A DNA stretch of 64,000 nt. It comes from Acidobacteria bacterium Mor1 (GTDB lineage Bacteria > Acidobacteriota > Polarisedimenticolia > Polarisedimenticolales > Polarisedimenticolaceae). Position numbers and translations under genes: made by a program. The notes beneath the pieces were generated by a model. It saw only the letters and a list, made by a program, of their open reading frames with translations, was not told the DNA's origin and made no database searches. Within the stretch, counting starts at the first letter, position 1. Every line of letters begins with the position of its first letter. This document shows, in pieces, positions 21,580 to 44,704 of this stretch. The stretch lies in NCBI GenBank assembly GCA_001664505.1, contig CP011806.1, positions 2,783,263-2,847,262 of the forward strand, written 5' to 3'.

Positions 21580-21699
21580 AACCCGAGGATGCTAGCACTT
21601 CGGCGCAAGACAGCCGCTCATCGCCTCAAATAACTGAAAACAAGAAACTTGAACGCGAAAGACCGCCGCACGCGCGACGAGAAACGGACAAAAAACCGA

Positions 21700-21731
21700 T
21701 TGACGGACCCTGGACTTCGATCGATAGTCCA
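21700..21731 (+). promoter_or_regulatory. Sigma-70-like promoter with overlapping palindrome, upstream of M36-like protease
   Basis: TTGACG at 21700-21705 and GATAGT at 21723-21728 are separated by exactly 17 bases. The sequence TGGACT at 21711-21716 and AGTCCA at 21726-21731 form a perfect inverted repeat around TCGATCGAT, overlapping the -10 box. Transcription would start near 21735, giving a leader of about 50 nt, which is AT-rich. The overlap suggests an operator, or a hairpin formed only on supercoiled DNA. Confidence 0.5.
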
Positions 21732-21786
21732 GGAGCATAAATTTATCCATGACTCTCAAAACGCGTTCATATGCTGGGGGGCTGAC

Positions 21787-24700
21787 ATGAAACTGCGTTC
21801 CCGCGGGCGCCTTGCGTTCGCCACGGCGATTTTCGCCCTGTTCACTGGCCTGACCTTGGCTGCGGTGGTTCACGAACCGGTCCATCGCTTCAGCGGCCTC
21901 GAAATCGACGACCCGGCCTGGAAACTGGGTCAGATCGCCGAGAACCCGGACAAGTCCGCCGACTTCGCCGACCTGCGCGAAGGCTGGCGGGAATTCCGCG
22001 CCAAGTACGGACAGGGCTGGAACGTCAGCCTCGACCGCCGCTCCGGCGCACCGCTGCTGGTGCGCGGTGCCGGCGTCTCGATCTACGACCCCGCCCAGGA
22101 GCCCGGGTCCGTCGAGGAGATCGAGGCCAATATCCGCAGCTTCATCCGCGACAACGGGCTGATCACCCGCATGTCCGAAGGCGAGATGGTGCTGAACGAA
22201 GCTTCGGGCAAGATGTCCGAGGGGCGCTGGATCCTGCTGTTCGACCGCATGCTCAACGGAGTTCGGGTCGAGGGGCAGCGAGTCCGCTTCTACCTCGTGA
22301 AGGGCAACCTGGTCTCCTTCGGTGCCGAACGGTGGGCTCCGACTCCGCCGGTCCCCGCCGCAGCGCTGGACGCTGACGCCGCCCGCGACAGACTTCGCGA
22401 CTACCTCGGCCTCGGCAACTCCGACGCCATGATCGACGACGTCGACCCCGAGCTGGTGCTCACCACCCGGCCCCCGGCGGGGCAAACCGGCCGCGCCTAT
22501 GACGGCGTCGTCGGCCGCGGCTTCACCCACGACCTGGTCTGGAACTTCTCGTTCAAGATCGAAGGTGAGATGGAAACCTGGATGGCCAAGGTCGATGCGG
22601 TCAGCGGCAAGGTCACGACCTTCTACGACAACACCAAGTACCACCAGGTCAAGGGTGGCGTGCATCCCGAGAGCAATGACGGCAACGGCTACGTGGGGAA
22701 CGAGCAGCTCGACTACCCCATGCCCTACGCCGACATCAGCATCGACGGCAACAACCTCACGACCAACGACATGGGCATGTACGACTGCTCCCCGTCAGGC
22801 GGTACGTCAACGACGACCCTGAGCGGCCTGTACGTCAACATCAGCGACAACTGCGGCGGCACCAGCGAGAGCACCACCTGCGAGGACGACCTCGATCTGG
22901 GCTCGAGCGGCGGCACCGATTGCGCGACCCCCGACGGCGCGAGCAGCGGCAACACCCACGCCGGCCGCGACAACTACTACCACCTGAACCGCATCAAGGA
23001 GAAGGGGCGCTACTACCTGCCTTCCCGCTCCTGGATCAACAACCAGCTCAACGCCAACGTCAACATCAACAGCAACTGCAACGCCACCTGGAACGGCAAC
23101 GTCAACTTCTACACCTCCGGCGGCGGCTGTGGGAACACCGGCGAGCTGGGCGGCGTGATTCACCACGAGTACGGCCACGGCCTCGACTCCAACGACGGCG
23201 GCGGCTTCGATAACTCGTCGGAATCCTACGCCGATGTGGCGGCGATCCTGATGGAGCGCCAGTCCTGCGTCGGGCCCGGGTTCCGCCCAGGCGTCAACTG
23301 CTCGGGCTACGGCGACGCGTGCCTCGACTGCACCGGCATCCGCGATCATGACTGGGGCGCGCGCCAGGACAACACCCCGGCAACCCCCGCCGTGTTCGTC
23401 CAGAACAACTGCGGCGGTGGTAGCGCCCCTTGCGGCCGCGCCGTGCACTGTGAGTCCTATCCCTCGTCGGAGTCGATGTACGACCTGGCGACCCGGGACC
23501 TGCCGGCCATGGGTATCGACAGCGTGTCCTCCTGGCAGCTGGCCGAGCACCTCTGGTACACCTCCCGCCTCGGCTCCGGCGGCAACATCTACAACTGCAC
23601 CCTGCCCGATTCCGACGGCTGCGGCGCAGGCAACTGGTTCATGCAGATGATGGTCGCCGACGATGACGACGGCGATCTGAGCAACGGAACGCCCCACGGC
23701 GCCGCGATCTTCGCCGCCTTCGATCGCCATAACATCGCTTGCGGCGATGCCAGCGATCCCGAGAACCAGAGCACCTCTTCCTGCCCGACTATCGACGCTC
23801 CGGTGCTCAACGGCACCGCCGGCTCCAACTCGGCGACCCTCAGCTGGGATCCCGTCGACGACGCCGCCCAGTACCTGGTGCTGCGCACCGAGGTCGGCTG
23901 CACCGGCTACTCCCAGAACGTCGTGCAGGAAGTGCCGGCGCCGACCGCCAACTGGGTCGACGACGAGCTGCCCAACGACTTCGAGTTCTTCTACCGGGTC
24001 CAGGCCATCGGCTCCAACCCGGCCTGCCAGAGCCCGGTCTCCAACTGCGCCGCGATCACGCCGCAGCCCTTCGCCGGCTCGATCCGCCTCGACCGCGCCG
24101 AGTACAACTGCGGCTTCGAGGTCACCATCACCGTCAACGACGCCAACACCGGCTCGTCCACGGTGGATGTCACCATCTTCTCCGACAGCGAGAGCACGCC
24201 GGAGATGATCACCCTGGCCGAGACCGAGCCCGGCTCGGCCCGCTTCACCGGCACGATCCAGCTCACCTCGAACCCGTCGACCAACGGCGACGGCATGCTG
24301 CAGGTGGTGGATTCCGATTCGATCACCGCCCGCTACACCGACAACGACGACGGCATGGGCGGTTCGGGGCTGCTGCGGGAGACCTCGGCGGTCGCCGACT
24401 GCGTCGGACCGATCATCTTCGACAACGACGAGCAGAACGTCACCGACGTTCAGGCCACCATCGTCTGGTTCACCGACGAGGATGCGACCTCCGAGTTGAC
24501 CTGGGGCGACACGACCCCCCCGGGCAACATCGACAGCACCGCCGGCCTGACCACCTCGCATTCGGTGACCATCAGCGGTCTCCAGCAGTGCACCACCTAC
24601 TTCTACTCGCTGCGCAGCGGCGACGAGCCGGGTAACGTCACCGTCAACGACAACTTCGGCACCTACTTCAAGTTCGAAACCCTGGGCGACTTCGGCGACG

Positions 24701-26484
24701 GACTGCAGGCCTGCAGCAACGGCCAGATCTCCGTCGAGAACCCCACGGTCTCCTGCGACAGCGACAGCCTGCCCTTCGAGGTGGTCGACATCGACCTCAA
24801 CCTCGATAGCGGTGTGGTCAACACGGTGACCATCGAGGTGACCTCGAGCACCGAGTCCGGCGGCGAGACGCTGCTGCTGACCGAAACCGGACCGAACACC
24901 TCGAAGTTCGCCGGCACGATCCTGACCGGCAACGGCCCTGCGATCCCCGGCGACGGCATCCTGCAGGTGGTGGACGGAGACACCGTGACCGGCAAGTACG
25001 TCGACTTCGACGAGGGCTTCGGCGAGCCGGGCATCGAGTTCGTCAACGCCCTGGCCGACTGTGCCGGAAGCAACTTCATCGAGATCACCCAGGTCGACGC
25101 CGGCGACGAGGCGGCGGGAGTCCGGGTGAACACCAGCGAGTTGACCACCGTGACCTTCGAGTGGGGCACCACCCCCGCGCTGGGCAACGTGATCGACTCG
25201 ACGACCCTGTCGACGGTCCACAACGCCACCTTCGGTCCGCTGCTCGAATGCGGCGAGGTCTACTTCCGGGTCACCGCCGTGGACCGCTACGGCAACGTCA
25301 GCGTGGCCGATGCCGATGGGGCGCCTTACGTGCTCAACGGCTTCCAGATCGGCGGCGCGATCTACAAGGACGGGTTCGAGTCCAACGGCGGCTGGACCCT
25401 CCAGGGTGAATGGGAGATCGGCGAGCCCCAGGGTCTCGGCACCTCCCCCGGCGATCCGGCCTCGGCCTTCGCCGGTCAACAGGTGCTGGGCCACGACCTT
25501 TCGGGTCAGGGTGCGGTACCCGGCGACTACGAGTCGGGCAGCAACGAGTCGGCGATCAGCCCGATCATCGGTACCGGCGGCGTGACCAACATGGAACTGA
25601 AGGTCCGGCGCTGGCTCAACGCCTCACCGACCACTCCCGCCTACCTCGAGGTCTCGACCAACGGCGGCGGTAGCTGGAGCGTGATCTACGTGAGCAACCT
25701 CGGTAACGAGGACAGCAGCTGGTCCTTCGAGACCTACGACCTGACCCCGTTCGTCGGCGGCGGCATCCAGATCCGCTTCCGCCAGGCGCCGGGCCTTCTG
25801 GGCGGCAACGATGCCGGCTGGAACATCGACCGATTCGTGGTGCGCGACGCCGACCAGCCTCAGTTCGAGGCCTGCGGCGGCTGCATCGGCATCCCGACCT
25901 TCGACGGCGTCGCCTCGGCGGTGGACGTCGACGGTTGTGCCGGCGGCGGCGTAAGCCTCAGCTGGAACCCGGCTCCGGGCTTCGGTAGCGGCACCGGCGG
26001 TAGCTACAACGTCTACCGCTCTACCACTCCCGGCTTCACTCCGGGCCCCGGCAACCAGATCGCCTCCGGGGTTACCGACACCACCTACACCGACTCCACG
26101 GCCCCGGTCGACGTCGACCTGTTCTACGTCGTGCGGGCGGAAAGCAACGAGACCTGCGACATCGGACCGAACAACAACGGCGTCGAGGACCAGAACCTGG
26201 TCTACGCGATGGCCCGCGACGAGTCGGTCCAGCCGGTGCCCGGCGGCATCGGAGAAACCGTGATCGTCGACAACATCAACGACGCCCACGCGCGCATCTC
26301 GTGGTCGGCGGCAGCCAACGCCGGCCAGTACCACATCTACCGTTCCGATGACGCCAGCGGCGGCTTCACCCAGATCGGCACGGCGACCGGTACTTTCTAC
26401 GACGACGAAAACGAGTTGGGACTGCCGGTCAGCCGGTTCTACACGGTTGTCCCGGCAGACGTCTGCGGCAACGAAGCGCCGTAG
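21787..26484 (+). CDS. Giant secreted M36-like (fungalysin/gluzincin) metalloprotease with repeated beta domains
   Basis: 1565 residues from ATG 21787; GGGGGG lies just upstream and the signal peptide follows (MKLRSRGRLAFATAIFALFT). A propeptide/FTP-like region (about 60-280) precedes the catalytic domain with H460-E-Y-G-H464 and the third zinc ligand E479 in SSESYADVAA, then a Cys-rich stretch. The C-terminal half is modular: a fibronectin-III-like unit at about 670-760, two copies of a ~200-residue module starting at about 760 and 980 (each with a GDG-L-Q-V-V-D signature followed by a domain ending in a Tyr-rich strand), a jelly-roll region (about 1190-1365, WTLQGEWEIGEPQGLG) and two more FN3-like units. 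It would be exported, autoprocessed and degrade extracellular protein. It ends VCGNEAP and is followed by an ideal terminator. Confidence 0.85.
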   Translation: MKLRSRGRLAFATAIFALFTGLTLAAVVHEPVHRFSGLEIDDPAWKLGQIAENPDKSADFADLREGWREFRAKYGQGWNVSLDRRSGAPLLVRGAGVSIYDPAQEPGSVEEIEANIRSFIRDNGLITRMSEGEMVLNEASGKMSEGRWILLFDRMLNGVRVEGQRVRFYLVKGNLVSFGAERWAPTPPVPAAALDADAARDRLRDYLGLGNSDAMIDDVDPELVLTTRPPAGQTGRAYDGVVGRGFTHDLVWNFSFKIEGEMETWMAKVDAVSGKVTTFYDNTKYHQVKGGVHPESNDGNGYVGNEQLDYPMPYADISIDGNNLTTNDMGMYDCSPSGGTSTTTLSGLYVNISDNCGGTSESTTCEDDLDLGSSGGTDCATPDGASSGNTHAGRDNYYHLNRIKEKGRYYLPSRSWINNQLNANVNINSNCNATWNGNVNFYTSGGGCGNTGELGGVIHHEYGHGLDSNDGGGFDNSSESYADVAAILMERQSCVGPGFRPGVNCSGYGDACLDCTGIRDHDWGARQDNTPATPAVFVQNNCGGGSAPCGRAVHCESYPSSESMYDLATRDLPAMGIDSVSSWQLAEHLWYTSRLGSGGNIYNCTLPDSDGCGAGNWFMQMMVADDDDGDLSNGTPHGAAIFAAFDRHNIACGDASDPENQSTSSCPTIDAPVLNGTAGSNSATLSWDPVDDAAQYLVLRTEVGCTGYSQNVVQEVPAPTANWVDDELPNDFEFFYRVQAIGSNPACQSPVSNCAAITPQPFAGSIRLDRAEYNCGFEVTITVNDANTGSSTVDVTIFSDSESTPEMITLAETEPGSARFTGTIQLTSNPSTNGDGMLQVVDSDSITARYTDNDDGMGGSGLLRETSAVADCVGPIIFDNDEQNVTDVQATIVWFTDEDATSELTWGDTTPPGNIDSTAGLTTSHSVTISGLQQCTTYFYSLRSGDEPGNVTVNDNFGTYFKFETLGDFGDGLQACSNGQISVENPTVSCDSDSLPFEVVDIDLNLDSGVVNTVTIEVTSSTESGGETLLLTETGPNTSKFAGTILTGNGPAIPGDGILQVVDGDTVTGKYVDFDEGFGEPGIEFVNALADCAGSNFIEITQVDAGDEAAGVRVNTSELTTVTFEWGTTPALGNVIDSTTLSTVHNATFGPLLECGEVYFRVTAVDRYGNVSVADADGAPYVLNGFQIGGAIYKDGFESNGGWTLQGEWEIGEPQGLGTSPGDPASAFAGQQVLGHDLSGQGAVPGDYESGSNESAISPIIGTGGVTNMELKVRRWLNASPTTPAYLEVSTNGGGSWSVIYVSNLGNEDSSWSFETYDLTPFVGGGIQIRFRQAPGLLGGNDAGWNIDRFVVRDADQPQFEACGGCIGIPTFDGVASAVDVDGCAGGGVSLSWNPAPGFGSGTGGSYNVYRSTTPGFTPGPGNQIASGVTDTTYTDSTAPVDVDLFYVVRAESNETCDIGPNNNGVEDQNLVYAMARDESVQPVPGGIGETVIVDNINDAHARISWSAAANAGQYHIYRSDDASGGFTQIGTATGTFYDDENELGLPVSRFYTVVPADVCGNEAP

Positions 26485-28025: not shown

Positions 28026-30164
28026 ATGCTGTCGTGCATGAAGTGTGTCTCGATCCCCCTACGAGCGCTGATGTTGACGGTCCTGCTGGGCCTGGCCGGC
28101 GGAGGTGCGTCTCAGGCGCAGTCCTCCGATTCGTCGAAAGACGAAACGGTCAAGCCTCCGGCAGCGGCACCCCGGCCCAGCCTGTTGCTGGTGACCATCG
28201 ATACGATCCGCGCAGACCGGGTCGGCGCCTACGGCTACGCCGAGGCCAAGACGCCGAACCTAGATGCCCTGGCCCGGGCGGGGGTCCGCTTCGACAACGC
28301 CCTCAGCCCGGTGCCGCTGACCGTGCCGAGCCACGCCACGATGCTGACCGGGCTGGTTCCCCGCCACCACGGGGTGCGGGACAACTCCTTCAAGCTGGTC
28401 GACGATGTCACCACTCTGGCGGAATCGTTTCAACGGGCGGGCTACGACACCGCGGCCTTCGTTTCGGCGGCGGTCCTGGATCGGCGTACCGGACTCGATC
28501 GTGGCTTTCGCATCTACGACGACACCGTTCGCGTCGGCGACCGCCGGGCCTTCAACTACGAGGAACGCGCCGCGAGCCAGACCAACGACGCGGTCTTCGC
28601 CCGGCTGGGTGAACTGAAGCCTCCGTTCTTCCTCTGGGTGCACTACTTCGATCCGCACCTGCCCTACGTTCCGCCGGAGCCCTACCGAAGCCAGGCCGAA
28701 GGCCGGCCCTACGACGGGGAGATCGCCTTCGTCGACGCCCAGTTCGGGCTGCTGCGGGACAAGGTGCTGGCCACCTCGGGTCCGCTGATCATCGCCGTGG
28801 CCGGCGATCACGGCGAGAGCCTGGGCGAACACCAGGAGGACAGCCACGGGGTGTTCGTCTACCAGGCGACCCAGAGGGTGCCTCTGATCCTGGCAGGCAA
28901 CAAGATCCCGTCGGGCAAGGTCGTCTCCGAGAACGTCGGGCTGGTCGATCTGGCGCCGACCCTGCTCGAGACCCTGCTCGTCGACAGCCCCAAGGGGCTG
29001 GACGGCGCGTCGCTGGTGCCGACCCTTCACGGGAAGGGGGAAAAGCGCGCCTACGAACTGGAATCCTTCTTCCCCAACTTCGCCTTCGGCTGGTCGCCGC
29101 TGCGGGCGCTGGTTCACGGGCGCTTCAAGTACATCGACGCTCCCGAGGCCGAGCTGTACGACCTGCGCACCGACCCCGGCGAAGAGACCAACCTGATCGC
29201 CATGCGCGACCAGGACGCGAGCATCCTCTCCCGGCGCCTGGCTGAGCTGGTCGGCGACGACCGCCCCGAGCGGCCGCCGATGGAGGCCGGGCACGACGAT
29301 CACATGGCCCGGCTCGAGGCCCTGGGCTACGTCGACGGTTCCGATGTCGACCGGGGGGACGGACGGGACGATCCCAAGGTCGCCATCGGCCGCCTCAAGC
29401 GGCTCAACGAAGCGCGGCGGCTGCTGCAAACGGGCAAACCCGAGAGCGCCCTGGAGATCCTGACCCCGCTCACCGCCGAGGATCCGGACAACGGCCAGGC
29501 GCTGCTCTCCAAGGTGCAGGCGCATCTCGGACTGGGGCAGATCCAGGCGGCCATCGGCGCCGCGACCCAGGCGACCGAGTTGCGTCCGGAGGATCCGCTG
29601 GCGCACTTCAATCTGGCCAACTCCCTGGCCAGCCGCCCCCTCGACGACACCGACGCGCAACAGCAGGCGCGACTGGCCTATCAGGAAACCCTGCGCCTCA
29701 ACCCCCGCTATGCCGAGGCCTACCTGAACTTCACCAGCTTCCTGCGCCGGACCAACGATCTGGACGGCGCCCGGCAACTGGTGGCCCAGGCGGCCCGGTA
29801 CGGGGTCGAAGATCCGGACCTGGAAACCCAGCGAGGCTTGCTGGCGCTGCAACAGGGGAAGCTGGAGGAGACCCGCGAAGCCTTCGCCCGGGCGCTCCGC
29901 CTGAACCCCTGCGCACCGGGTGTCGAAGAAGCTCTAGGGCGTCTGGCCTACAAGGAGAGTGACTTCCGCGAGGCCGCGGTGCACTACCGGTCCGCATTCC
30001 GCTGCGAGCCGCGGCCCGATCTGGCGATGACCCTCGGCTCGATCTACATGCTGAAGCTGTCGGAACCGGATGCCGCCCGGGACTACTACACCCAGGCGTT
30101 GGCCATGCTCCCGCCGGGGCACCCCGAAGCGGCGTCGCTACGGGAGATCCTCTCCGGGCTCTAG
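28026..30164 (+). CDS. Secreted sulfatase-fold (alkaline phosphatase superfamily) hydrolase with TPRs, second paralogue
   Basis: 712 residues from ATG 28026 (ATG 28038 is equally possible). A signal peptide with a hydrophobic run (LRALMLTVLLGLAGGGASQA) precedes the catalytic domain: VTIDTIRADRVGAYG (metal-binding Asp), PLTVPSHATMLTG (nucleophile region), FFLWVHYFDPHLPY, VAGDHGESLGEHQEDSHG and TDPGEETNLIA. As in the paralogue at 5237-7291 the formylglycine position is Thr (T99 in T-V-P-S-H). TPRs fill about 480-712 (e.g. IGAATQATELRPEDPLAHFN and REAFARALRLNPCAPGVEEAL). The two paralogues differ in anchoring: this one has no lipobox. Substrate is unknown. The last 27 bases overlap the convergent CPBP gene. 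Confidence 0.8.
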   Translation: MLSCMKCVSIPLRALMLTVLLGLAGGGASQAQSSDSSKDETVKPPAAAPRPSLLLVTIDTIRADRVGAYGYAEAKTPNLDALARAGVRFDNALSPVPLTVPSHATMLTGLVPRHHGVRDNSFKLVDDVTTLAESFQRAGYDTAAFVSAAVLDRRTGLDRGFRIYDDTVRVGDRRAFNYEERAASQTNDAVFARLGELKPPFFLWVHYFDPHLPYVPPEPYRSQAEGRPYDGEIAFVDAQFGLLRDKVLATSGPLIIAVAGDHGESLGEHQEDSHGVFVYQATQRVPLILAGNKIPSGKVVSENVGLVDLAPTLLETLLVDSPKGLDGASLVPTLHGKGEKRAYELESFFPNFAFGWSPLRALVHGRFKYIDAPEAELYDLRTDPGEETNLIAMRDQDASILSRRLAELVGDDRPERPPMEAGHDDHMARLEALGYVDGSDVDRGDGRDDPKVAIGRLKRLNEARRLLQTGKPESALEILTPLTAEDPDNGQALLSKVQAHLGLGQIQAAIGAATQATELRPEDPLAHFNLANSLASRPLDDTDAQQQARLAYQETLRLNPRYAEAYLNFTSFLRRTNDLDGARQLVAQAARYGVEDPDLETQRGLLALQQGKLEETREAFARALRLNPCAPGVEEALGRLAYKESDFREAAVHYRSAFRCEPRPDLAMTLGSIYMLKLSEPDAARDYYTQALAMLPPGHPEAASLREILSGL

Positions 30165-30983
30165 CCGCTCGGACATCCCATCCGGTTCAGCGCGCCGCAT
30201 CCGCGGATCGAGCCAGACCACCAGCAGGCTGACCAGCCAGATCAAGCCGACGAACAGGAAGGCCGAGACCGGACGGCCGTCGTAGAGGTCCCACACCGAC
30301 GTATAGATCGCGACGAAGTTGGCTCCGAAGTGGGCGAGAATCGCGATGCCGACGTTGCCGCCGGATCGCGTGAACAACCACCCGATCAACATGGACCCTC
30401 CGGTGACATACGCGGTGAACCCTGCCCAGTAGCCGGGACCGTTGGGCCAGCTATCCACCAGGAAGTCCATGGCATGCCAGCCGCTCCAGGTCAAGCCGAC
30501 CAGGAAGCAGGCCACGCCCCCCGGCACCTGACGCTGAAGACGGGTCTGCATGAAACCCCGCCAGCCGAACTCCTCGGAGATGCCCGGGAGCAGCAGCACC
30601 ACGGGAAGAAGAAGCAGGAATTCGAGCCTACCGTAGATCGTCCAGTAGGCCGCGAGCGGGGAGATCCCGCTGTAGAGGTAGCGTCCCGTCATCGCTAGAA
30701 CAGCGAGCATCAGAAATAGCGTGAGTGAGAGGGCGATCCATAGGAACGCCGGGCGCGGTCGCCAAACTCGGAGGAACAGCTGCCGAACCCCGGCCGGCCC
30801 CTCAACGATCAGCGTAACGATCACGGCGCTAGCGGTGGGCAGGAACCCCATGGGCACCGTGAGCAGCTCGAGCGTTTCCACGGAAACACCGCCCAGGCGC
30901 AACGGCCAGAGCACCAGGTGCACCGGCAGCAGCACCATCAGGCAATAGCTCAACACCGGATGGCGGCGAATCCACTCGAGCAT
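30138..30983 (-). CDS. CPBP-family (Abi/Rce1-like) intramembrane metalloprotease
   Basis: 281 residues, polytopic (about seven or eight helices). The diagnostic motif E137-E-x3-R142 is present (SEEFGWRGFMQTRL), with the second motif around H170 (SGWHAMDF) and a third His in ILAHFGANF; together these form the active site of Rce1-type glutamate-dependent membrane proteases. Bacterial members act in bacteriocin self-immunity, prenyl-protein-like maturation or membrane stress. Shine-Dalgarno GGGGAG is 9 bases upstream. It follows the trypsin-like protease gene by 45 bases on the same strand and is probably the last gene of a three-gene unit of hydrolases. Confidence 0.85.
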   Translation of the reverse strand: MLEWIRRHPVLSYCLMVLLPVHLVLWPLRLGGVSVETLELLTVPMGFLPTASAVIVTLIVEGPAGVRQLFLRVWRPRPAFLWIALSLTLFLMLAVLAMTGRYLYSGISPLAAYWTIYGRLEFLLLLPVVLLLPGISEEFGWRGFMQTRLQRQVPGGVACFLVGLTWSGWHAMDFLVDSWPNGPGYWAGFTAYVTGGSMLIGWLFTRSGGNVGIAILAHFGANFVAIYTSVWDLYDGRPVSAFLFVGLIWLVSLLVVWLDPRMRRAEPDGMSERLEPGEDLP

Positions 30984-31028
30984 CGGCGGCCCACTCCCCT
31001 TGCAAACTCGGGAGCATGATACCGGCCG

Positions 31029-31802
31029 CTAGCGCGCACCCCCCTCGGATACGCCGATCACTCCTTCGACCCAGGCCCGATGTGGCGCCATGGGGGAGAA
31101 CAGGTCGCGGCTTCCGTACTGGCCGTACTTGCCCGGCTTCGGGCTCATGCCGGCACTGCCGATGGCGACGACGATCAATTTGCCGCCCCGCTCGACCAGT
31201 GCCGGCGTCCCGCTGTCCCCGGGACCACTGACCCCCTCGAGCTTGGTGGCATCCTCTCCCGGAGCATCCATGCGCAACTCGATTCCGCGCTCGCCCAGGG
31301 CCGAGACCCGGTTGGTCGCCATACGGAACTTGCCGTCGTTGCCCACGACCCCTTTCTCGCCGTCGCCGTAGTCACCGCGGCCGGCGAGCCAGACGTCGGT
31401 ACCGACGGCCAGCGGGTCGTAGGAGATCGCCAGCGGTTCGACGCCGGCCACCGGCTTCTCGAGCCGCATCAGGGCCAGGTCCCGGTCCCCCGGCCGGTGA
31501 TCGTCGACGGCCTTCACCTCGACGACCTTGTACCGGGTACCGGCGAAGTCCACCGCCAGCCGTTTCTGCGAGGCACCGGTAGCCACGTGAGCCGCGGTCA
31601 GCACCCACTGGGGTGCCACCAGCACCCCCTCACCGTCGGGGAAGACCTTGCCGATGGCGGCGAAGCGCTCGGGGTCGGCCAGGGTCGCCTCCCCTTCCAC
31701 GTCGTGGCGCATGATCATCCCGTGCGCGGGAAGGGACAGCGCCCCGGCGGCCAGACCGCCGAGCAACAGGGCACCGATCAGCCCGCGCACGGCCCCGCTC
31801 AT
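31029..31802 (-). CDS. Secreted trypsin-like serine protease (S1)
   Basis: 257 residues from ATG 31802, which overlaps the stop of the preceding beta-lactamase-fold gene (ATGA) and directly starts a signal peptide (MSGAVRGLIGALLLGGLAAG). The catalytic triad is complete: H72 in VLTAAHVATG, D108 in DRDLALMRL and S197 in GVSGPGDSGTPAL. At about 225 mature residues it is a minimal trypsin domain with no PDZ, so not a DegP-type chaperone protease. A periplasmic or extracellular location is expected. Translational coupling to the upstream serine hydrolase suggests a shared physiological role. Confidence 0.85.
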   Translation of the reverse strand: MSGAVRGLIGALLLGGLAAGALSLPAHGMIMRHDVEGEATLADPERFAAIGKVFPDGEGVLVAPQWVLTAAHVATGASQKRLAVDFAGTRYKVVEVKAVDDHRPGDRDLALMRLEKPVAGVEPLAISYDPLAVGTDVWLAGRGDYGDGEKGVVGNDGKFRMATNRVSALGERGIELRMDAPGEDATKLEGVSGPGDSGTPALVERGGKLIVVAIGSAGMSPKPGKYGQYGSRDLFSPMAPHRAWVEGVIGVSEGGAR

Positions 31803-33211
31803 CGTTCGACCCCTTCGGCGAGAATGTCGGACAGCAGCTCCGAACTCGGGGGATCCATATTCGCCAGCACGATCACCATGTGCCCTCCTTCGAGACGCAT
31901 CGTGGCGCTCAGTCCGGGGCCGCCGCCGGCCAGCGCGATTCCGCCCCTGTCCCAACCGCCGGCCAGGAAGTTCGACTCTCCGCTCAGCAGCTTACCGTCG
32001 ATGATCCCGGTGTAGAAGCGGTGCATGTCGTCGACGGTGGCGTAGCTCTTGCCCCAGGGCCCGCCCTTGGCCGGCTCCAGGTAGATGTTCTTGGCCACCC
32101 GCTCCCGCGGACTGCCGTCGAAGTTGATCCGGGTGTAGCCGACCGCCACGTCGGGAACCACCGCATCGGTCTCGAAGAAACCGGTACGGGTCATCCCCAG
32201 CGGCTTGAAGATGGTGCGGACCACGTGCTCGTCGAAGCGCTCGCCGCTGATCTTCTCGATGATCGCGCCGAGCACGGTGTAGCCGTAGTTGGTGTAGTAC
32301 TCCCGGCTCCCGGGCTCATGCAGCAGCGGCTTGGGCCCCCAGATCGGGATGTAGTCCTCGATCTCCCGCAGCGAACCCATCGGCGTGTCGAACCACTCGT
32401 CGGTGAAGTAATCGCCGAGCCCGGAACGGTGCTCGAGCAGCTGGCCGATGGTGACCTCGTTGCGCACCCGCTCGTTGGGATAGTCCGGGAGATGACGGCC
32501 GACCTTGTCGTCGAGGGACAGCTTGCCCTGGTCCCGCAGCGCCAGGATCGCGATGCGGGTGTAGTCCTTGTTGCAGGAACCAATGTCGAAGCGGGTCTCG
32601 AGGGTGTTCGGCACCGAGAACTCCCGGGAGGCCAACCCCACCGCCTTGCGGTACTTGACGCCGCTCTTGTCGGCGATCAGCACCGTCCCCGAGAAGTAGC
32701 CGTCGGCGGCGAGCTGGGCCAGGTAGCGGTCGAGCTTGGGGGAGCGCTCACTCCAGTCGCCGCCGGAGATGTCGGCGGTTGGAATCCCCTCTTCGCCGTC
32801 GCCCCCACCCCCCATGTCCGCGCCGATCATCCGGATCTGGTCGGGGCGGTCGGCGTCGAAGTTGAAGCCGAGTCGCAGCGACTCGTCCAGGCCCGAGGCG
32901 TGCACCTTGACCTTGATCTGGCCGGAAGCGTCGATCATCACGCCGCGGACCTTCAGGGTTCCGAGTTCTTCGACCATGCTCTCGAAGGACGACTGCCAGT
33001 CCTTGACCTCCGACAACTGGAAATGCTTGGCCCGGAATGCGGCCATGGTCTCGACGTCGGCGCTGTTGTGCGCCTCGATCCAGGCGATGGCGATCGCCTC
33101 CTGGCGGGCTTCCTGACCGGCGTCGGCAACCGCAACGGTGGCCGAGGCGAAGGTCAGGATCGCGATGAGGGCGAACGGCGCCAGGGTCCGGGACATCGAA
33201 AGCGGGTTCAT
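31799..33211 (-). CDS. Secreted beta-lactamase-fold serine hydrolase (class C / S12-like) with NTF2-like N-domain
   Basis: 470 residues from ATG 33211, supported by GGAGG 8 bases upstream and a signal peptide (SMSRTLAPFALIAILTFASA). Residues about 35-145 form a small alpha/beta domain (IAWIEAHNSADVETMAAFRA) of the NTF2/DUF-type often found before this catalytic domain. The S12-like domain has S212-C-N-K215 as the nucleophile/general base pair (FDIGSCNKDYTRI), the Y-T-N loop (EYYTNYGYTVLG) and a late GGG/His-Thr-Gly-like region. Such proteins include D-aminopeptidases, esterases and cell-wall carboxypeptidases; the substrate cannot be read from sequence. First gene of an operon with the S1 protease and CPBP protease, divergent from a two-component system. 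Confidence 0.85.
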   Translation of the reverse strand: MNPLSMSRTLAPFALIAILTFASATVAVADAGQEARQEAIAIAWIEAHNSADVETMAAFRAKHFQLSEVKDWQSSFESMVEELGTLKVRGVMIDASGQIKVKVHASGLDESLRLGFNFDADRPDQIRMIGADMGGGGDGEEGIPTADISGGDWSERSPKLDRYLAQLAADGYFSGTVLIADKSGVKYRKAVGLASREFSVPNTLETRFDIGSCNKDYTRIAILALRDQGKLSLDDKVGRHLPDYPNERVRNEVTIGQLLEHRSGLGDYFTDEWFDTPMGSLREIEDYIPIWGPKPLLHEPGSREYYTNYGYTVLGAIIEKISGERFDEHVVRTIFKPLGMTRTGFFETDAVVPDVAVGYTRINFDGSPRERVAKNIYLEPAKGGPWGKSYATVDDMHRFYTGIIDGKLLSGESNFLAGGWDRGGIALAGGGPGLSATMRLEGGHMVIVLANMDPPSSELLSDILAEGVER

Positions 33212-33252
33212 GGGCGTACCTCCTATTGGATGCTCCCATGCTGGAACGCCCG

Positions 33253-33281
33253 GATGAAGATCTTCTGAAGAGCTCTTCATC
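33253..33281. promoter_or_regulatory. Composite palindrome / 11-bp-spaced direct repeat between hydrolase operon and two-component system
   Basis: GATGAAGA at 33253-33260 is inverted as TCTTCATC at 33274-33281. Within this, GAAGATCTTC (33256-33265) and GAAGAGCTCTTC (33267-33278) are each perfect palindromes, and the hexamer TGAAGA recurs at 33255 and 33266, exactly 11 bases apart. OmpR/PhoB-family regulators bind direct repeats spaced by one helical turn, so this is a good candidate operator for the response regulator encoded 47 bases downstream, controlling itself and the divergent hydrolase operon. Confidence 0.5.
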
Positions 33282-33327
33282 GGATCTTTACCGGGGCTGA
33301 TAGGCTTTTTCGGAGCAAGGAGTTGCG

Positions 33328-34020
33328 TTGAACGACCGGATCCTGATCGTCGAGGATGACCGCCCCACGGCGGACACCCTGCGGATGTACCTGGAAAACG
33401 AGGGTTTCCAGGTCGACGTCGAGCATGACGGGGTTTCGGGGCTGGCCGCCGCCAGGGACGGCGACTACGTGCTGGTCGTGCTGGACCTGATGCTGCCGCG
33501 CCTGCCGGGGACCGACGTCTGCCGTGCGCTGCGCAAGGAACGCAACGTGCCGATCCTGATGCTGACCGCCCGCACCACCGAGGACGACCGGATCCAGGGG
33601 CTGGAATCCGGCGCCGACGACTACGTGGCCAAACCCTTCAGCCCCCGGGAGGTGGTTGCCCGGGTCCGTGCCGTGCTGCGCCGCACCGAACACCCGGAGC
33701 TCGGCGGCCGGGAACAGCTACTGTTCGACGGACTGACCCTGGACCTGGTCCGCCGGCGAGTCGAAGTGCATGGCGAGGAAGTGCTGCTGACTCCGGCGGA
33801 ACTGGCGCTGTTGGCCACCCTGGCCCGGGCGCCGGGGCGGGTCTTCTCCCGCGAGACACTGGCCGAGCGCTCCTTCGGCGAGGACTTTCGCGGAACTAGC
33901 CGCAACGTCGACGTTCACGTGATGAACCTGCGGCGCAAGATCGAACGGGACCGCTCCCGGCCGGAGTTCATCGAAACGGTATTCGGTGAAGGCTACCGCT
34001 TTGCCGGACGGCGGCGCTGA
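33328..34020 (+). CDS. OmpR/PhoB-family response regulator
   Basis: 230 residues from a TTG at 33328 with AAGGAG 6 bases upstream. The receiver domain has the acidic pair (ILIVEDDRPT), phosphoacceptor D53 (VVLDLMLPRLPG), conserved Thr (MLTART) and Lys (DDYVAKPF). The C-terminal winged helix is canonical (LTPAELALLATLARAPGRVF, then NVDVHVMNLRRKIE). The stop overlaps the start of the histidine kinase gene by one base (TGATG). It probably regulates the divergent operon of secreted hydrolases. Confidence 0.95.
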   Translation: MNDRILIVEDDRPTADTLRMYLENEGFQVDVEHDGVSGLAAARDGDYVLVVLDLMLPRLPGTDVCRALRKERNVPILMLTARTTEDDRIQGLESGADDYVAKPFSPREVVARVRAVLRRTEHPELGGREQLLFDGLTLDLVRRRVEVHGEEVLLTPAELALLATLARAPGRVFSRETLAERSFGEDFRGTSRNVDVHVMNLRRKIERDRSRPEFIETVFGEGYRFAGRRR

Positions 34021-35399
34021 TGAAGAGCCTGCGCGTCCGGCTGACCATCGCCATCGTGCTGATCACCCTGGCGGCGTCGACCATCGTCGGCATCGGCCTT
34101 CGCAGCTACACCCAGCGGGAGTTCTCCCAGTTCCTGGAGGTCGAGGCCGAGTTCGAAGCGGTGGAGTTTCCCGACCTCGGCGAGGTCGAGCGGCGGCTCG
34201 GTTCCGGCGACCCGGACGAAGCGGTGGAACTGCTGGAGGGGCTGGCCGGTAGCGACCGCATGATCCTGCTCGGCCCTTCGGGAGAAGTCTTGGCCGACAC
34301 CGCGCCGGGCGGCGAACGGATCAGCTTCCGCGACGGCGAACTGGAACTGGTCGCGGTCGTGCCCGGCGAAACGGGCAAACGGCAACGTAACGAGACCATG
34401 CGCCTAAGGGGCGGGCTGCCGCTGACCGACGGATCGGACCGGGTGGGCACGCTTTTCATGCTGCCCGGCCGCAGCGGCGCCGGCCCGGCGGAGCCGGCGA
34501 CCGGTTTCCGCCGCAAGATCTCCGGAGCCCACGCCGTCGGTGTCGCCGTCGCCACCCTGCTGGCCCTGGTCATCGCGCTGCTGCTGTCTCGACGGATCGT
34601 CGGCCCGGTGGAGTCCTTGACCGGCGCGGCGGCCAGGCTCGCCGAGGGGGATCTCTCCCAACGGGTCGAGGTAGAGTCCGCCGACGAGATCGGAAACCTG
34701 GGCCGCACGTTCAACCAGATGGCCGAGTCCCTGGAGCGCCAGGAGCAGGCTCGCCGGGCGATGACCGGTGACGTGGCCCACGAACTTCGCACCCCGTTGA
34801 CCCACCTGCGCTGCAAACTCGAGTCGGTGCAGGACGGGCTGCTCGAACCCGATGGCAACCTGGTCGATGAGCTCCACGGCGAGATCGTGCACCTGGGCCG
34901 GCTGGTCGACGATCTCCAGGAACTGGCCCAGGCCGAGGCGGGAAGCCTGCCGCTGTACCCCGCGCGGGTCGATGTCGCCGGGGTTCTAGACGAGGTTGTC
35001 CGCTCGTTGCCGTCGAACCATGTGCGCGTCGAGGCCGGCGACTCACTCCCGGCGGTGCATGTCGATCCGGACCGGCTGCGCCAGGTGCTGCGCAATCTGC
35101 TGGAAAACGCGATGCGCCACGGGGGTGAGGGAACCATCCTGCTGGAAGCAGCGCAGGACGGAGACAGGGTCGCGATCCAGGTCGTCGACGAGGGGCCGGG
35201 GATCCCCGCGGATCAACTCGACAAGGTGTTCGACCGCTTCTACCGCACCGACCCATCCAGGGCCCGGGAGACCGGAGGCGCGGGACTGGGGCTCGCCATC
35301 GCCCGCAAGCTGGTCGAGGCCTGGGGCGGAAGGCTGGATGCCGAACCCGGGCGGGACCGCGGAGCGGCATTCCGCTTCACGGTCCCGATCTCGGCCTGA
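34020..35399 (+). CDS. Two-component sensor histidine kinase (HAMP-HisKA-HATPase)
   Basis: 459 residues. One TM at about 8-28, a periplasmic sensor of about 140 residues without a recognisable fold (rich in Glu/Gly), a second TM at about 172-190, HAMP (about 190-242), HisKA with phospho-His254 in DVAHELRTPLTHLR, and an ATPase domain with N box (LLENAMRHGG), G1 (DEGPGIPADQ), F box and G2 (TGGAGLGLAIARKL). Translationally coupled to the response regulator upstream. The signal is unknown; the small periplasmic domain suggests detection of an envelope or extracellular cue. Confidence 0.95.
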   Translation: MKSLRVRLTIAIVLITLAASTIVGIGLRSYTQREFSQFLEVEAEFEAVEFPDLGEVERRLGSGDPDEAVELLEGLAGSDRMILLGPSGEVLADTAPGGERISFRDGELELVAVVPGETGKRQRNETMRLRGGLPLTDGSDRVGTLFMLPGRSGAGPAEPATGFRRKISGAHAVGVAVATLLALVIALLLSRRIVGPVESLTGAAARLAEGDLSQRVEVESADEIGNLGRTFNQMAESLERQEQARRAMTGDVAHELRTPLTHLRCKLESVQDGLLEPDGNLVDELHGEIVHLGRLVDDLQELAQAEAGSLPLYPARVDVAGVLDEVVRSLPSNHVRVEAGDSLPAVHVDPDRLRQVLRNLLENAMRHGGEGTILLEAAQDGDRVAIQVVDEGPGIPADQLDKVFDRFYRTDPSRARETGGAGLGLAIARKLVEAWGGRLDAEPGRDRGAAFRFTVPISA

Positions 35400-38947: not shown

Positions 38948-40588
38948 ATGCGGAACCTGCTCGAGAGACATCGTTGGACCTGCCTGGGACTCGCGACCCT
39001 GCTGGTCCTGGCGGCCATGGCGGCCGTCGGAAGCAACCGATCCTCGTCGGACGCTTATCTGTTGGTGCTTGAACGAGACGCCTCTGCCGAGGCTCTCTCC
39101 TCGGCCGGCATCGAGGTCGTCGCGACCTTCCCTGCAAGCGGCGTCGTGCGCGTCCGGCTCAGCGCCCGGCAGGCAAGCTCGGCTCTCGAGTTGCCCGGAG
39201 TGCTGAGCGTCACCCCCGACGGCATCGTCCGTAGCGCCAGGAAGAAGGACGAAAAGAAGAAGCCGAAGGACGACCCGAAGAAGGACGACAAAAAGAAACC
39301 CAAGGATGAGAAGGGCAAGAAAGACAGGAAGAGCAAGGAGTCCGAACAGGACCGGGACGATCGACCCACCGGCCGCGGAGTGACCGTCGCCGTCCTCGAC
39401 TCGGGAGTTACCGAAGAACACCCCGACCTGAAAGGCCGGGTCCGCGAACGGGTCAACTTCGCCAAGGGCAAGGGCGAGGACGAATGGGGCCACGGCAGTC
39501 ACGTGGCCGGCATCGTCGCCGGCTGCGGCGACGCGAACCCCGACTATCTGGGCGTCGCCCCCGACGCGGACGTGATCGACGTTCGCGTGCTGGAGAAGGA
39601 CGGCGAGGGCAAGGTGTCCGAGGTGATCGAGGGCATCGAGTGGGTCATCGCCAACCGGGACGTCTACGGCATTCGCGTGCTCAACATCTCTCTCGGCCAC
39701 CGCATGCTGGAATCCGCCGAGGCCGATCCGCTGGTACGGGCCGCGGAAGCCGCGTGGGACGCCGGCATCGTCGTGGTTGCTTCGGCGGGCAACCACGGGA
39801 CCGACGGCTACTTCACGATCACGAGCCCCGGCAGCAGCCCCCGGATCATCACCGTCGGCTCGCTGACCACCTGGGGCAATGACGATCCTTCCGACGACGT
39901 GGTCTCGAGCTACTCCTCCCGCGGGCCGACCTGGTCGGATCACGTGGTCAAGCCGGACCTGCTGGCGCCGGGCAACCGCATCATGTCCCTCAACGCCAAG
40001 AACGCGAAGCTGAACAAGGAACATGTGAACAAGGATTCGCGTGACGGCGACTACAAGAAGAAGGACAGCTACTTCGAACTCTCGGGCACCAGCATGGCGG
40101 CAGCCCACGTCTCGGGTGTCGTCGCCAGGTTGCTCGAAGCGGAACCCTGGTTGACCCCCGACGACATCAAGGCCCGCCTGATGGGCACTGCCCGCAAGCT
40201 GGGCTCCAATCCCTTCGCTCACGGTGCCGGGGTGGTCGACCTTGACGCGGCTCTGGCCGACGGCAGCCGCATCAACGCCGCCGCCCTTTCCCCGCGGGTC
40301 GTGCGGGCAACCGAAGAGCTGATCGCCGTGGAAGATACCGCTGAACTCTGGGACGACGACCGCTGGTCGCTCGGCGTCCTCTGGGGCGACGGGGTACTCT
40401 GGAGCGATGCCGCGACCTCCTCGGACGCGGCGCTTTGGTCCGACGGGGTGCTCTGGAGCGATGCCGCGCTGTGGTCCGACGCCGCGCTATGGAGCGACTC
40501 CACACTCTGGAGCGATACGGCGCTCTGGTCCGATGCTCTACTCTGGAGCGACTCGGTCATCCCCGACGGCAAGGGGAAGAACGACTGA
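38948..40588 (+). CDS. Secreted subtilase (S8) with Lys/Asp-rich linker and C-terminal LWSD hexapeptide repeats
   Basis: 546 residues. Signal peptide (LGLATLLVLAAMAAVGS), an I9-like propeptide (about 35-97), then a highly charged Lys/Asp linker (about 98-138) rarely seen in this position. The protease domain has D151 (VAVLDSGVTEEHPD), H182 (WGHGSHVAG) and S382 (LSGTSMAAAHVSG). Residues 477-536 consist of ten six-residue units of consensus x-L-W-S-D-x (e.g. ALWSDG, VLWSDA, TLWSDT), encoded by ten 18-base DNA repeats. The enzyme is probably exported and self-activated; the repeat tail may be a solenoid or an attachment/secretion element. Followed after 30 bases by the GNAT gene. Confidence 0.9.
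   Translation: MRNLLERHRWTCLGLATLLVLAAMAAVGSNRSSSDAYLLVLERDASAEALSSAGIEVVATFPASGVVRVRLSARQASSALELPGVLSVTPDGIVRSARKKDEKKKPKDDPKKDDKKKPKDEKGKKDRKSKESEQDRDDRPTGRGVTVAVLDSGVTEEHPDLKGRVRERVNFAKGKGEDEWGHGSHVAGIVAGCGDANPDYLGVAPDADVIDVRVLEKDGEGKVSEVIEGIEWVIANRDVYGIRVLNISLGHRMLESAEADPLVRAAEAAWDAGIVVVASAGNHGTDGYFTITSPGSSPRIITVGSLTTWGNDDPSDDVVSSYSSRGPTWSDHVVKPDLLAPGNRIMSLNAKNAKLNKEHVNKDSRDGDYKKKDSYFELSGTSMAAAHVSGVVARLLEAEPWLTPDDIKARLMGTARKLGSNPFAHGAGVVDLDAALADGSRINAAALSPRVVRATEELIAVEDTAELWDDDRWSLGVLWGDGVLWSDAATSSDAALWSDGVLWSDAALWSDAALWSDSTLWSDTALWSDALLWSDSVIPDGKGKND
40376..40555 (+). repeat. Ten tandem 18-bp coding repeats (LWSD array) in subtilase gene
   Basis: Ten in-frame 18-base units encoding x-L-W-S/G-D-x. 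The core codons CTCTGG and GAC/GAT are kept, while the Ser codon alternates between TCC and AGC (GGC for Gly in the first unit) and the third unit has lost LW (ATSSDA). The drift of synonymous bases shows selection on the peptide rather than recent slippage. Confidence 0.85.
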
Positions 40589-41671: not shown

Positions 41672-44600
41672 ATGTTCCAGGGGCTTCGTCGGATCGCGTT
41701 CGTCTCCCTTTGTCTGGCCGCGGCCACGGCCGCTCAGGCCGGCGCCGAGCTGCAGTTGAAAGCCGGATCCTTCGATCCGACGCGCCAGCTTCCTGCAGTC
41801 CCCGCCGAACTACGCCTGAGCGATAGCGAGCGGTCGGCCAGCGGCGTACGCATCCTGCAGTTCGACCGGATTCCTGACGAGACGATCCGCGCCGCCATCG
41901 AACGCAGAGGTGGACGGGTACTCGACTACCTGCCCGACAACGCCCTGCTGGTGCGCCTCCCGGCCGGCGCCCTGAGTCGAATCTCCGAACTCGAAGCGCT
42001 GCGCTGGAACGGCGTGCTCGAACCTGCCTGGAAACTCTCCGACCGCCTGAGCCTCGACCCGGCCACCGACGAAGGAAACGCCGAGACTCCGACTCGCGTG
42101 ATCGTCGATCTGTGGCGCGACGTCGACTCCGCCGCGATCCGTCCTGCGATGGAATCGGTCGGCCTCACGGTGATCAACGTCTGGACCAACCACGGACTGC
42201 GCCGCGCGGTGGTCGAAGGGAACCCGGCCCAGCTGCGCGCCGCCGCCCGGCTGACCGACGTCGGCTGGATCGAACCGGTGCCGCAATTGACCATGCGCAA
42301 CGCCACGACCAGCTGGGTGATGCAGAGCTTCCAGACCAACTTCCGGCCGATCTGGGATCAGGGGCTCCATGGTGAGGGGCAGATCCTCGGCAACATCGAC
42401 GGCCGCCTCGATATGGATTCCTGCTACTTCGACGACAACGGCGAGCTTCCGGGGCCGCTGCACCGAAAGGTGGTGGCCTACCGTTCTAGCAGCGGCTTCG
42501 GCGCCGACAACCACGGGACCCACACCGTCGGCACCATGGTCGGCGACACCGGCGTGCCCGGCGAGTTCGACGCCGAGGACGGCAACGCCTACGCGGCGAA
42601 GGTCAGCTTCGGCAACGTCAACGACGTGACCGGCTTCGGCGGCGCTCCCTCCAACCTGCTGCAGTACCTCAACGACGCTCACGCCGACGGCGCCCGGGTC
42701 CACGGCAACTCCTGGGGAGATGACGGCACCACCAACTACACCGGCTGGAGTCACGACATCGACGAGTTCTCCTGGAATAACGAGGACAGCCTGGTGGTCT
42801 TCGCCGTGACCAACGGCGGCTCGTTGCGCACCCCGGAGAACGCCAAGAACGTGCTGGCCGTCGGCGCCACCCAGCGGGGCAACGGCGCCAACAGCCACTG
42901 TAGCGGCGGCGACGGTCCGACCAGCGATGGCCGGCGCAAGCCGGAGATCTACACGCCCGGGTGCAGCACCCTGTCCGCGGCAGCGGGCCAGGCCTGCGAC
43001 GTGCGCGCCTCGACCGGCACCAGCATGGCCTGCCCGGCGATCAGCGCCGCCGGCGCCCTGGTGCGCCAGTACTTCACCGAAGGCTGGTACCCGACGGGAC
43101 AGAAGTTCGCGACCGACTCCCGCAACCCGACCGGCGCCATGGTCAAGGCGGTGCTGATCAACGGCGCCGTGGACATGACCGGCGTGTCCGGCTACCCCAG
43201 CAATCGGGAAGGCTGGGGGCGACTGGTGCTCGATCGCCCGCTCTACTTCGACGGCGACAGCCGCGACCTGGTCTGGATCGACGACGTACGCCGCGCCGAT
43301 GGGCTGAGCACCGGCCAGAGCGTGTCCTACAGCCTCGACGTGACCGGCACCGCCGAAGATCTGCGCATCACCCTGAACTTTACCGAGCCGCCGGCTGCCC
43401 TGCAGGCCGCCACCGCCACGATCAACAACCTCGATCTGGTGGCCGAGGCGCCTGACGGCACGATCTACCTGGGCAACGTCATGTCCGGCGGCCAATCGGT
43501 TCCCGGCGGCACGACCGACGGCATCAACAACCTGGAGCAGATCATCCTCGACGCGCCCCAGACCGGCGTCTGGACCATCACCGTCGAGGCGGATTCGGTG
43601 CCTGTGGGCCCGCAGGGTTTCGCCCTGGTGGCCAGCGGTGAGCTCGGCACCCTCAGCGGCGGGCCCCGTCTGCGCAAGGTGGCCGACCGCCCCATCGATC
43701 CGCTGGGCAACGCCGACGACGGCCTCGATCCCGGCGAGACCCTGGAGCTGGCCATCTCCCAGAAGAACTTCGGCCTGATCGACGGCACCGGGGTGCAAGG
43801 CACGCTGAAGGCGGTCGATCCGGATCTCGTGCGCATCACCCGGACCCAGGCGAACTGGCCCGATGTCGTCTCCGGCGGCACCGCCGAGAGCGCCGCCCCG
43901 CACTTCGAGATGATCGTTTCTCCCGACGTGGAGTGCGGATCGAGTCTGGCCTTCGAACTCGAAACCTCCACCGCCGAAGCGGAATCCGACACCCAGAGCT
44001 TCACCATCGAGATCCCCCCGGTGGATCAGGCCTTCATCCAGGAAGCAGGCGCCGAAATCCCGGCGTTGACGCCGGACCCGATTCTCTCGGTACTGTCGGT
44101 CAGTGCCGAGGCGACCATCGCCGAACTGGATGTGTCGGTCGCGATCACCCACTGGCGGGGCAGCGAGCTGATCGTCGAGCTGACCTCGCCCGAAGGCACC
44201 ACCGTGCGGCTTCACAACCAGACGCCCGGCACCGCCAACGGTCTGGAAGTGCGCTACGACCTGGACCGGCAACCCGACGGACCGGGCACCATGGCGGACT
44301 TCATCGGCGAGGAACTCAACGGAGAGTGGACCCTCGCCATCACCGACGCCAATCTCGGACAGGGGCAATCGGGCAGCCTCAACCGCTGGGAGCTCCACGT
44401 CGAGACCGTAGACGGCTTCGGTTGCGATCCGTTCAGCTGCACCGATCCGGTCCCCGGCCCGGTCGACGACGAGTCCTTCCGGGTCAGCGCCACCGGCGGT
44501 GATCTGGAGTTCTCCTGGAACGCGGTATCGGGCGCCGGCGGCTACCACGTGCTGGAGCAGGCTGCGCCCCAGTTCGACGATCCGCTGTTCACCGGCGGCA

Positions 44601-44704
44601 CCGACGGCGCGACGACGTTGACGATCCCCGGCGGCCGCAGCGGCGCGGGCATCACGTACTACATCGTGCGCGCGACCAACAGCTGCGGCTGGGAAGGGCC
44701 CTAG
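41672..44704 (+). CDS. Large secreted subtilase (S8) with C-terminal proprotein-convertase P domain
   Basis: 1010 residues. Signal peptide (RIAFVSLCLAAATAAQAGAE), a long propeptide (to about 225), then an S8 domain of the KP-43/fervidolysin-like type: D243 in GNIDGRLDMDSC (the usual D-T/S-G has G), H281 in NHGTHTVG and S451 in GTSMACPAIS, with NGG oxyanion Asn region FAVTNGG. A jelly-roll/CARDB-like stretch spans about 540-790. Residues about 790-915 carry the P-domain signature (LIVELTSPEGTTVRLHN, FIGEELNGEWTLAITD). A final FN3-like segment ends SCGWEGP. It would be a secreted protease. The GGGGGG near the ATG may serve as Shine-Dalgarno. Confidence 0.9.
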   Translation: MFQGLRRIAFVSLCLAAATAAQAGAELQLKAGSFDPTRQLPAVPAELRLSDSERSASGVRILQFDRIPDETIRAAIERRGGRVLDYLPDNALLVRLPAGALSRISELEALRWNGVLEPAWKLSDRLSLDPATDEGNAETPTRVIVDLWRDVDSAAIRPAMESVGLTVINVWTNHGLRRAVVEGNPAQLRAAARLTDVGWIEPVPQLTMRNATTSWVMQSFQTNFRPIWDQGLHGEGQILGNIDGRLDMDSCYFDDNGELPGPLHRKVVAYRSSSGFGADNHGTHTVGTMVGDTGVPGEFDAEDGNAYAAKVSFGNVNDVTGFGGAPSNLLQYLNDAHADGARVHGNSWGDDGTTNYTGWSHDIDEFSWNNEDSLVVFAVTNGGSLRTPENAKNVLAVGATQRGNGANSHCSGGDGPTSDGRRKPEIYTPGCSTLSAAAGQACDVRASTGTSMACPAISAAGALVRQYFTEGWYPTGQKFATDSRNPTGAMVKAVLINGAVDMTGVSGYPSNREGWGRLVLDRPLYFDGDSRDLVWIDDVRRADGLSTGQSVSYSLDVTGTAEDLRITLNFTEPPAALQAATATINNLDLVAEAPDGTIYLGNVMSGGQSVPGGTTDGINNLEQIILDAPQTGVWTITVEADSVPVGPQGFALVASGELGTLSGGPRLRKVADRPIDPLGNADDGLDPGETLELAISQKNFGLIDGTGVQGTLKAVDPDLVRITRTQANWPDVVSGGTAESAAPHFEMIVSPDVECGSSLAFELETSTAEAESDTQSFTIEIPPVDQAFIQEAGAEIPALTPDPILSVLSVSAEATIAELDVSVAITHWRGSELIVELTSPEGTTVRLHNQTPGTANGLEVRYDLDRQPDGPGTMADFIGEELNGEWTLAITDANLGQGQSGSLNRWELHVETVDGFGCDPFSCTDPVPGPVDDESFRVSATGGDLEFSWNAVSGAGGYHVLEQAAPQFDDPLFTGGTDGATTLTIPGGRSGAGITYYIVRATNSCGWEGP

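Follow-up and report, generated by a model that had tools for sequence, protein, structure and literature searches.

The genes at positions 31029 to 35399 of the window, by which the whole stretch of 64,000 nucleotides under analysis is meant, probably form a two-component circuit dedicated to exported serine hydrolases; it would be induced by an envelope signal and would regulate itself. Judged from sequence comparison, the regulatory unit is real, but it consists of four genes rather than the five of the initial annotation. The window is taken from Acidobacteria bacterium Mor1 (G000), whose genome is one contig of 5.985 Mb. The features of the locus are as follows.

30138-30983, minus strand: CPBP/Rce1-like membrane protease (PF02517)
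31029-31802, minus strand: S1 trypsin-like protease (PF13365/PF00089) with a signal-peptide-like start and conserved H72, D108 and S197 (GDSG)
31799-33211, minus strand: S12-type serine hydrolase of the beta-lactamase fold (PF00144, E 1.4e-48), beginning with a signal-peptide-like stretch and carrying an additional N-terminal domain
33212-33327, no strand: divergent regulatory region of 116 bp with two head-to-head 11-bp-spaced repeats, at 33255-33271 and 33274-33290
33328-34020, plus strand: OmpR-family response regulator (PF00072 and PF00486), TTG start
34020-35399, plus strand: sensor histidine kinase with HAMP, HisKA and HATPase domains and no Pfam match for its N-terminal part

All five genes that had been annotated between 30138 and 35399 were found at these coordinates, and Pfam returned the families originally assigned. 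The proposed ATGA overlap between the stop of the S12 gene and the start of the S1 gene is present in the sequence; the regulator and kinase genes overlap by one base (TGATG), and 116 bp separate the regulator start from the S12 start, in agreement with a coupled pair transcribed away from the hydrolases. The minus strand had further been described as a coupled unit of three hydrolases. This stands for the S12 and S1 genes and fails for the CPBP gene, which starts 45 bases beyond the S1 stop, with no overlap, and is not conserved with the others. Proteases are abundant further along the window, where an S8 subtilase whose C-terminus is a series of LWSD-type repeats (38948-40588, plus strand) and a second subtilase with a P-domain (41672-44704, plus strand) are encoded. 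On the other side of the locus, a 1611-amino-acid protein (21649-26484, plus strand) contains a zinc-protease-like HHEYGH stretch and has no Pfam peptidase match.

The S1 protease as query found matches in 9 of 60 relatives searched, and a profile search with the S12 protein in 396 genomes of the phylum led to G337 as a carrier of the four-gene block. In G337, which lies outside the window's class, and in G004, a member of the window's family, the regulator-kinase pair is divergent from S12-S1 as in the window, while the flanking genes are not common to the three genomes; the block is thus spread over two genera of a single family plus one genome from another class. The top three matches of an S1 search in the 396 genomes (E<=1e-133) are exactly these three, the next one following at 5e-58. 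Elsewhere, S1 relatives do not adjoin an S12 match (G003, G005, G041, G054, G056, G178 and G295), and in G101 (L117:7804-10669, minus strand) S12 is followed by S1, with no regulator or kinase match in 16 kb. Protein identities between G000 and G004 are 59% for S12, 55% for the kinase, 72% for the regulator and 53% for S1; between G000 and G337 they are 60%, 53%, 69% and 48%, respectively. Since the block proteins are thus nearly equally similar, whereas rpoB, the one marker used, is clearly not (77.5% to G004 versus 63.7% to G337), the block may have spread horizontally.

A counterpart of the CPBP gene was found neither in G004 or G337 nor adjoining their blocks, and a search with the CPBP protein in 14 genomes gave, besides itself, two weak matches with E about 5e-6. 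The co-occurrence survey envisaged for the five genes hence returned four of them in G004 and G337 and left out the CPBP protease, which was rejected as part of the module; it is probably a local passenger, possibly co-transcribed. The three successive hydrolase genes on one strand had also prompted the suggestion of a peptide-maturation or immunity module that includes CPBP. This can hardly be upheld, because it rests on a gene without match in G004 and G337, and no precursor-peptide or transporter gene was seen on inspection of the block, short gaps included.

With a profile of the kinase, a wider family came into view, comprising 12 of the 396 genomes (E<=1e-67). An S12 gene directly adjoins the regulator-kinase pair in 11 of the 12, a linkage that is partly inheritance, the family loci being interrelated. 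Three gene orders are found: divergent in G000, G004, G337 and G054; regulator-kinase-S12 in G087, G016, G064 and G267; and S12-regulator-kinase in G329, G178 and G367, PF00144 being confirmed in all seven co-directional partners. The remaining genome, G295, has the pair and no S12 gene within its 17-kb stretch. Searching contigs with a single S12 protein gave no match, while a 7-row S12 alignment gave 11 loci, mostly from genomes already met in the S12 search of the 396 genomes, and contributed L075 as a further divergent case. G000 contains 26 S12-type matches over its roughly 6 Mb, from which the chance of accidental adjacency is estimated at around a percent for any one pair. For 20 other OmpR-type regulators, taken from G000 and G267, no S12 match is present within about 1.5 kb, a limit that would miss a partner located behind the kinase, as is the S12 gene of G267 itself. 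Near S12 relatives without the pair were found in G041, G069 and G056 (whose contig starts inside the S12 gene), so that linkage to it is not universal in the S12 subfamily; in G015, whose S12 gene is cut off by the contig end, no pair was seen in the 8.4 kb of that contig.

This distribution bears on the idea of a Cpx/Bae-like stress system for envelope protein quality control, with the S1 protease as main effector and the S12 enzyme as cell-wall editor. The model closest to the kinase is indeed BaeS, reached with 250 bits and below the cut-off of 500; S1 is conserved in the block, and in G004 it runs in frame into a Tricorn_C1-PDZ-S41 protease (L019:8949-10895, plus strand; 648 amino acids). 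The constant partner in the family is S12, however, and S1 occurs at 3 of the 12 kinase loci and is absent from the other 9, which makes this scenario improbable. At the same G004 locus, a SprT-like gene (L019:4854-5369, minus strand) overlaps the end of the kinase gene. The structure model of the window's kinase is of low confidence (mean pLDDT 67) and contains helices and a small beta sheet at residues 54-148.

The divergent gap contains a predicted operator. OmpR-family regulators use direct-repeat operators with an 11-bp period, and such repeats are present in the promoter region presumed to be controlled here: TTCAG-N6-TTCAT and TTCAT-N6-TTTAC, arranged head to head, each with 11-bp spacing. 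The sole exact copy of TGAAGA-N5-TGAAGA in the 5.985 Mb of G000 is in this gap, with a one-mismatch inverted copy beside it, and the motif recurs in the same gap of G004; read from the opposite strand, it takes the form TTCAY-N6-TTCAY. Of 14 family promoters, 6 have that form exactly (G004, G087, G064, G267, the G295 pair and the G295 S12 gene) and 8 have it to within one mismatch, the further two being those of G337 and the window. In the window, each of the two sites is one letter off the TTCAY pair and two off strict TTCAC. TTCAC is exact in both halves, again with N6, in G087, G267 and the G295 pair. At spacings of N1-5 or N7-15, none of the 14 promoters has an exact TTCAY pair. In the eight box-bearing regions, at most 2% of 300 dinucleotide shuffles per region reach the observed score, a figure not to be taken as a clean P value, because the box was picked after the window and G004 had been seen and was extended to TTCAY after several more. 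Upstream of the 20 control regulators (30 loci minus 7 non-regulator-like frames, one unusual long protein and two family members), the box was exact in none and within one mismatch in one. The operator proposed between the divergent units has thereby gained backing from cross-genome comparison as a predicted site.

In the other six promoters (G054, L075, G016, G329, G178 and G367), the box is poor or absent, with two or three deviating letters. The S12 gene of G367 is preceded instead by a perfect 11-bp tandem, GATCTTCGAAG. Throughout G000, TTCAY-N6-TTCAY has 12 exact sites versus 4 for the reversed control; none of these falls in the window gap, and all are more than 2 kb from any S12 match, which does not suggest a wider S12 regulon. 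The box at the separate S12 gene of G295 would fit control at a distance. In G087 (L096), an exact tag is separated from the regulator start by a run of CCCTGAA repeats. That gene order is due to chance or mere inheritance, the hydrolases not being controlled by the pair, would be in keeping with the weak box in 6 of 14 promoters. It is nonetheless highly improbable, given that the flanks differ, that the linkage persists through three gene orders, and that the box is common to family promoters.

Both hydrolases have signal-peptide-like N-terminal stretches, as read by eye from the translations, and are probably exported. The S1 protein matches its family and shows H72, D108 and S197 invariant in all three rows (window, G004 and G337), which we take, by motif, to be the His-Asp-Ser triad of a trypsin-like protease. 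In the S12 protein, which belongs to PF00144, SxxK is found at S212-K215 and YxN at Y306-N308, all four named residues being invariant in 10 of 10 aligned rows, while the third motif, K/H-T-G, is missing and LAGGGPG stands in its place; these three are presumably the motifs of the S12/class C enzymes. Its score against the class C beta-lactamase model is 59 bits, with a cut-off of 415. By sequence, the relatives of solved structure are 3tg9, alkaline D-peptidase and R61; by fold, 3tg9, FmtA and DltE are found at Z about 24, in a structure model of middling quality (72; core parts below 50) of which the fold alone was used. With SxxK and YxN kept, K/H-T-G missing and these enzymes as nearest relatives, the protein is an S12-type hydrolase and unlikely to be a classical beta-lactamase. 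It shares the fold and the SxxK/YxN motifs with the B. halodurans penicillin-binding protein 3tg9, FmtA, DltE, the R61 DD-peptidase and Pab87 (2qmi), at about 20-29% identity, and, unlike them, has an additional domain of about 100 residues at its N-terminus. This region has no family match of its own in the window, not even to ORF_12_N at E<=10. In relatives it gives weak matches to ORF_12_N (PF18042) or SnoaL-like models, those to ORF_12_N being in G064 (27.4 bits, cut-off 26.7) and G054 (17.9 bits, below it), so that it may at best be NTF2/ORF_12_N-like. ORF_12_N is the N-terminal domain of a beta-lactamase-fold protein of the clavulanate cluster.

When 41 regulators were placed in a tree, the family's 13 members came out as one clade (support 97/90), and E. 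coli CreB grouped outside it with L140, another regulator of G000 (100/98); by descent, the pair is therefore not a CreBC system. The upstream region of L140 (G000:C1:4085203) is without the tag. Against the CreB model, the window's regulator scores 198 bits (cut-off 273), and against the CreC model its kinase scores 121 bits (cut-off 356), neither cut-off being reached. By the tests made on these sequences, the pair is not a member of CreBC/BlrAB, though its box looks alike. The same data argue on the question of true beta-lactam resistance, in which a CreBC/BlrAB-type system would induce a real beta-lactamase upon inhibition of cell-wall synthesis. The modelled S12/class C fold would suit this, and so would the box, which has the form of the cre/blr-tag TTCACnnnnnnTTCAC (TTCACn6TTCAC), given in the accessible part of the source for Cre- and BlrA-controlled promoters (PMC3660660), exactly so in both halves in three family promoters. 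The regulator outside the CreB branch, the CreB and CreC scores, the 59 bits of the S12 enzyme and its missing third motif speak against it, and such resistance is considered unlikely.

Returning to the dedicated circuit, the kinase would sense an envelope or periplasmic signal and phosphorylate the regulator, which would then bind to TTCAY-type half-sites, repeated in tandem with 11-bp spacing within the divergent gap, where the box itself is conserved, and would activate its own operon as well as that of S12 and S1. Judging from its fold, the exported S12 enzyme may cleave an amide or ester of the D-amino-acid type, with peptidoglycan peptides, D-alanyl esters and toxic peptides or esters as candidates, and the co-induced S1 protease may degrade peptides or proteins arising from the same stress. 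A regulated envelope response, as had been proposed from the window itself, is favoured by the retention of the block in two genera and another class, by the signal-peptide-like starts of its enzymes and by the common operator box. To our knowledge, envelope signalling has been little studied in Acidobacteriota. The locus looks like a modestly new variation on a known type of circuit, a cell-envelope response of a broadly familiar sort; its value lies in a recurrent, testable pairing of sensor and enzyme target with a named DNA box, which could reveal the natural signals, other than clinical beta-lactams, to which regulated penicillin-binding-like enzymes answer.

A bolder version, which is doubtful, would see in the family a regulator lineage separate from CreB and tied to S12 across Acidobacteriota, using the same tag as CreBC/BlrAB, with the loop closed by the window's S1 protease, which would cleave either the sensor, the S12 enzyme or the inducer. 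If this were true, two-component induction of penicillin-binding-like enzymes would be older and wider than the proteobacterial cases, and loop closure by S1 would be a two-component analogue of BlaR-type proteolytic control.

Summarizing the relation to known systems, the five-gene set was found only in the window, in line with the original statement that no described system of this exact composition is known; the regulator-kinase-S12 core is recurrent, and its logic has a precedent in the published linkage of BlrAB and beta-lactamase in Aeromonas, as far as the accessible portion of that report goes (PMC3660660). By analogy with that portion, the circuit logic would most likely be that of the BlrAB-controlled beta-lactamases, albeit in a different regulator lineage. 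With BlrAB/CreBC of Aeromonas and E. coli, as described there (PMC3660660), the locus shares an OmpR-type two-component pair, a tandem 11-bp-spaced box that resembles the TTCAC type, and a serine beta-lactamase-fold enzyme that is linked or controlled. It differs in that the family regulators form a clade apart from CreB, neither the model cut-off nor the third motif marks the S12 enzyme as a class C beta-lactamase, and the block of the window adds an S1 protease.
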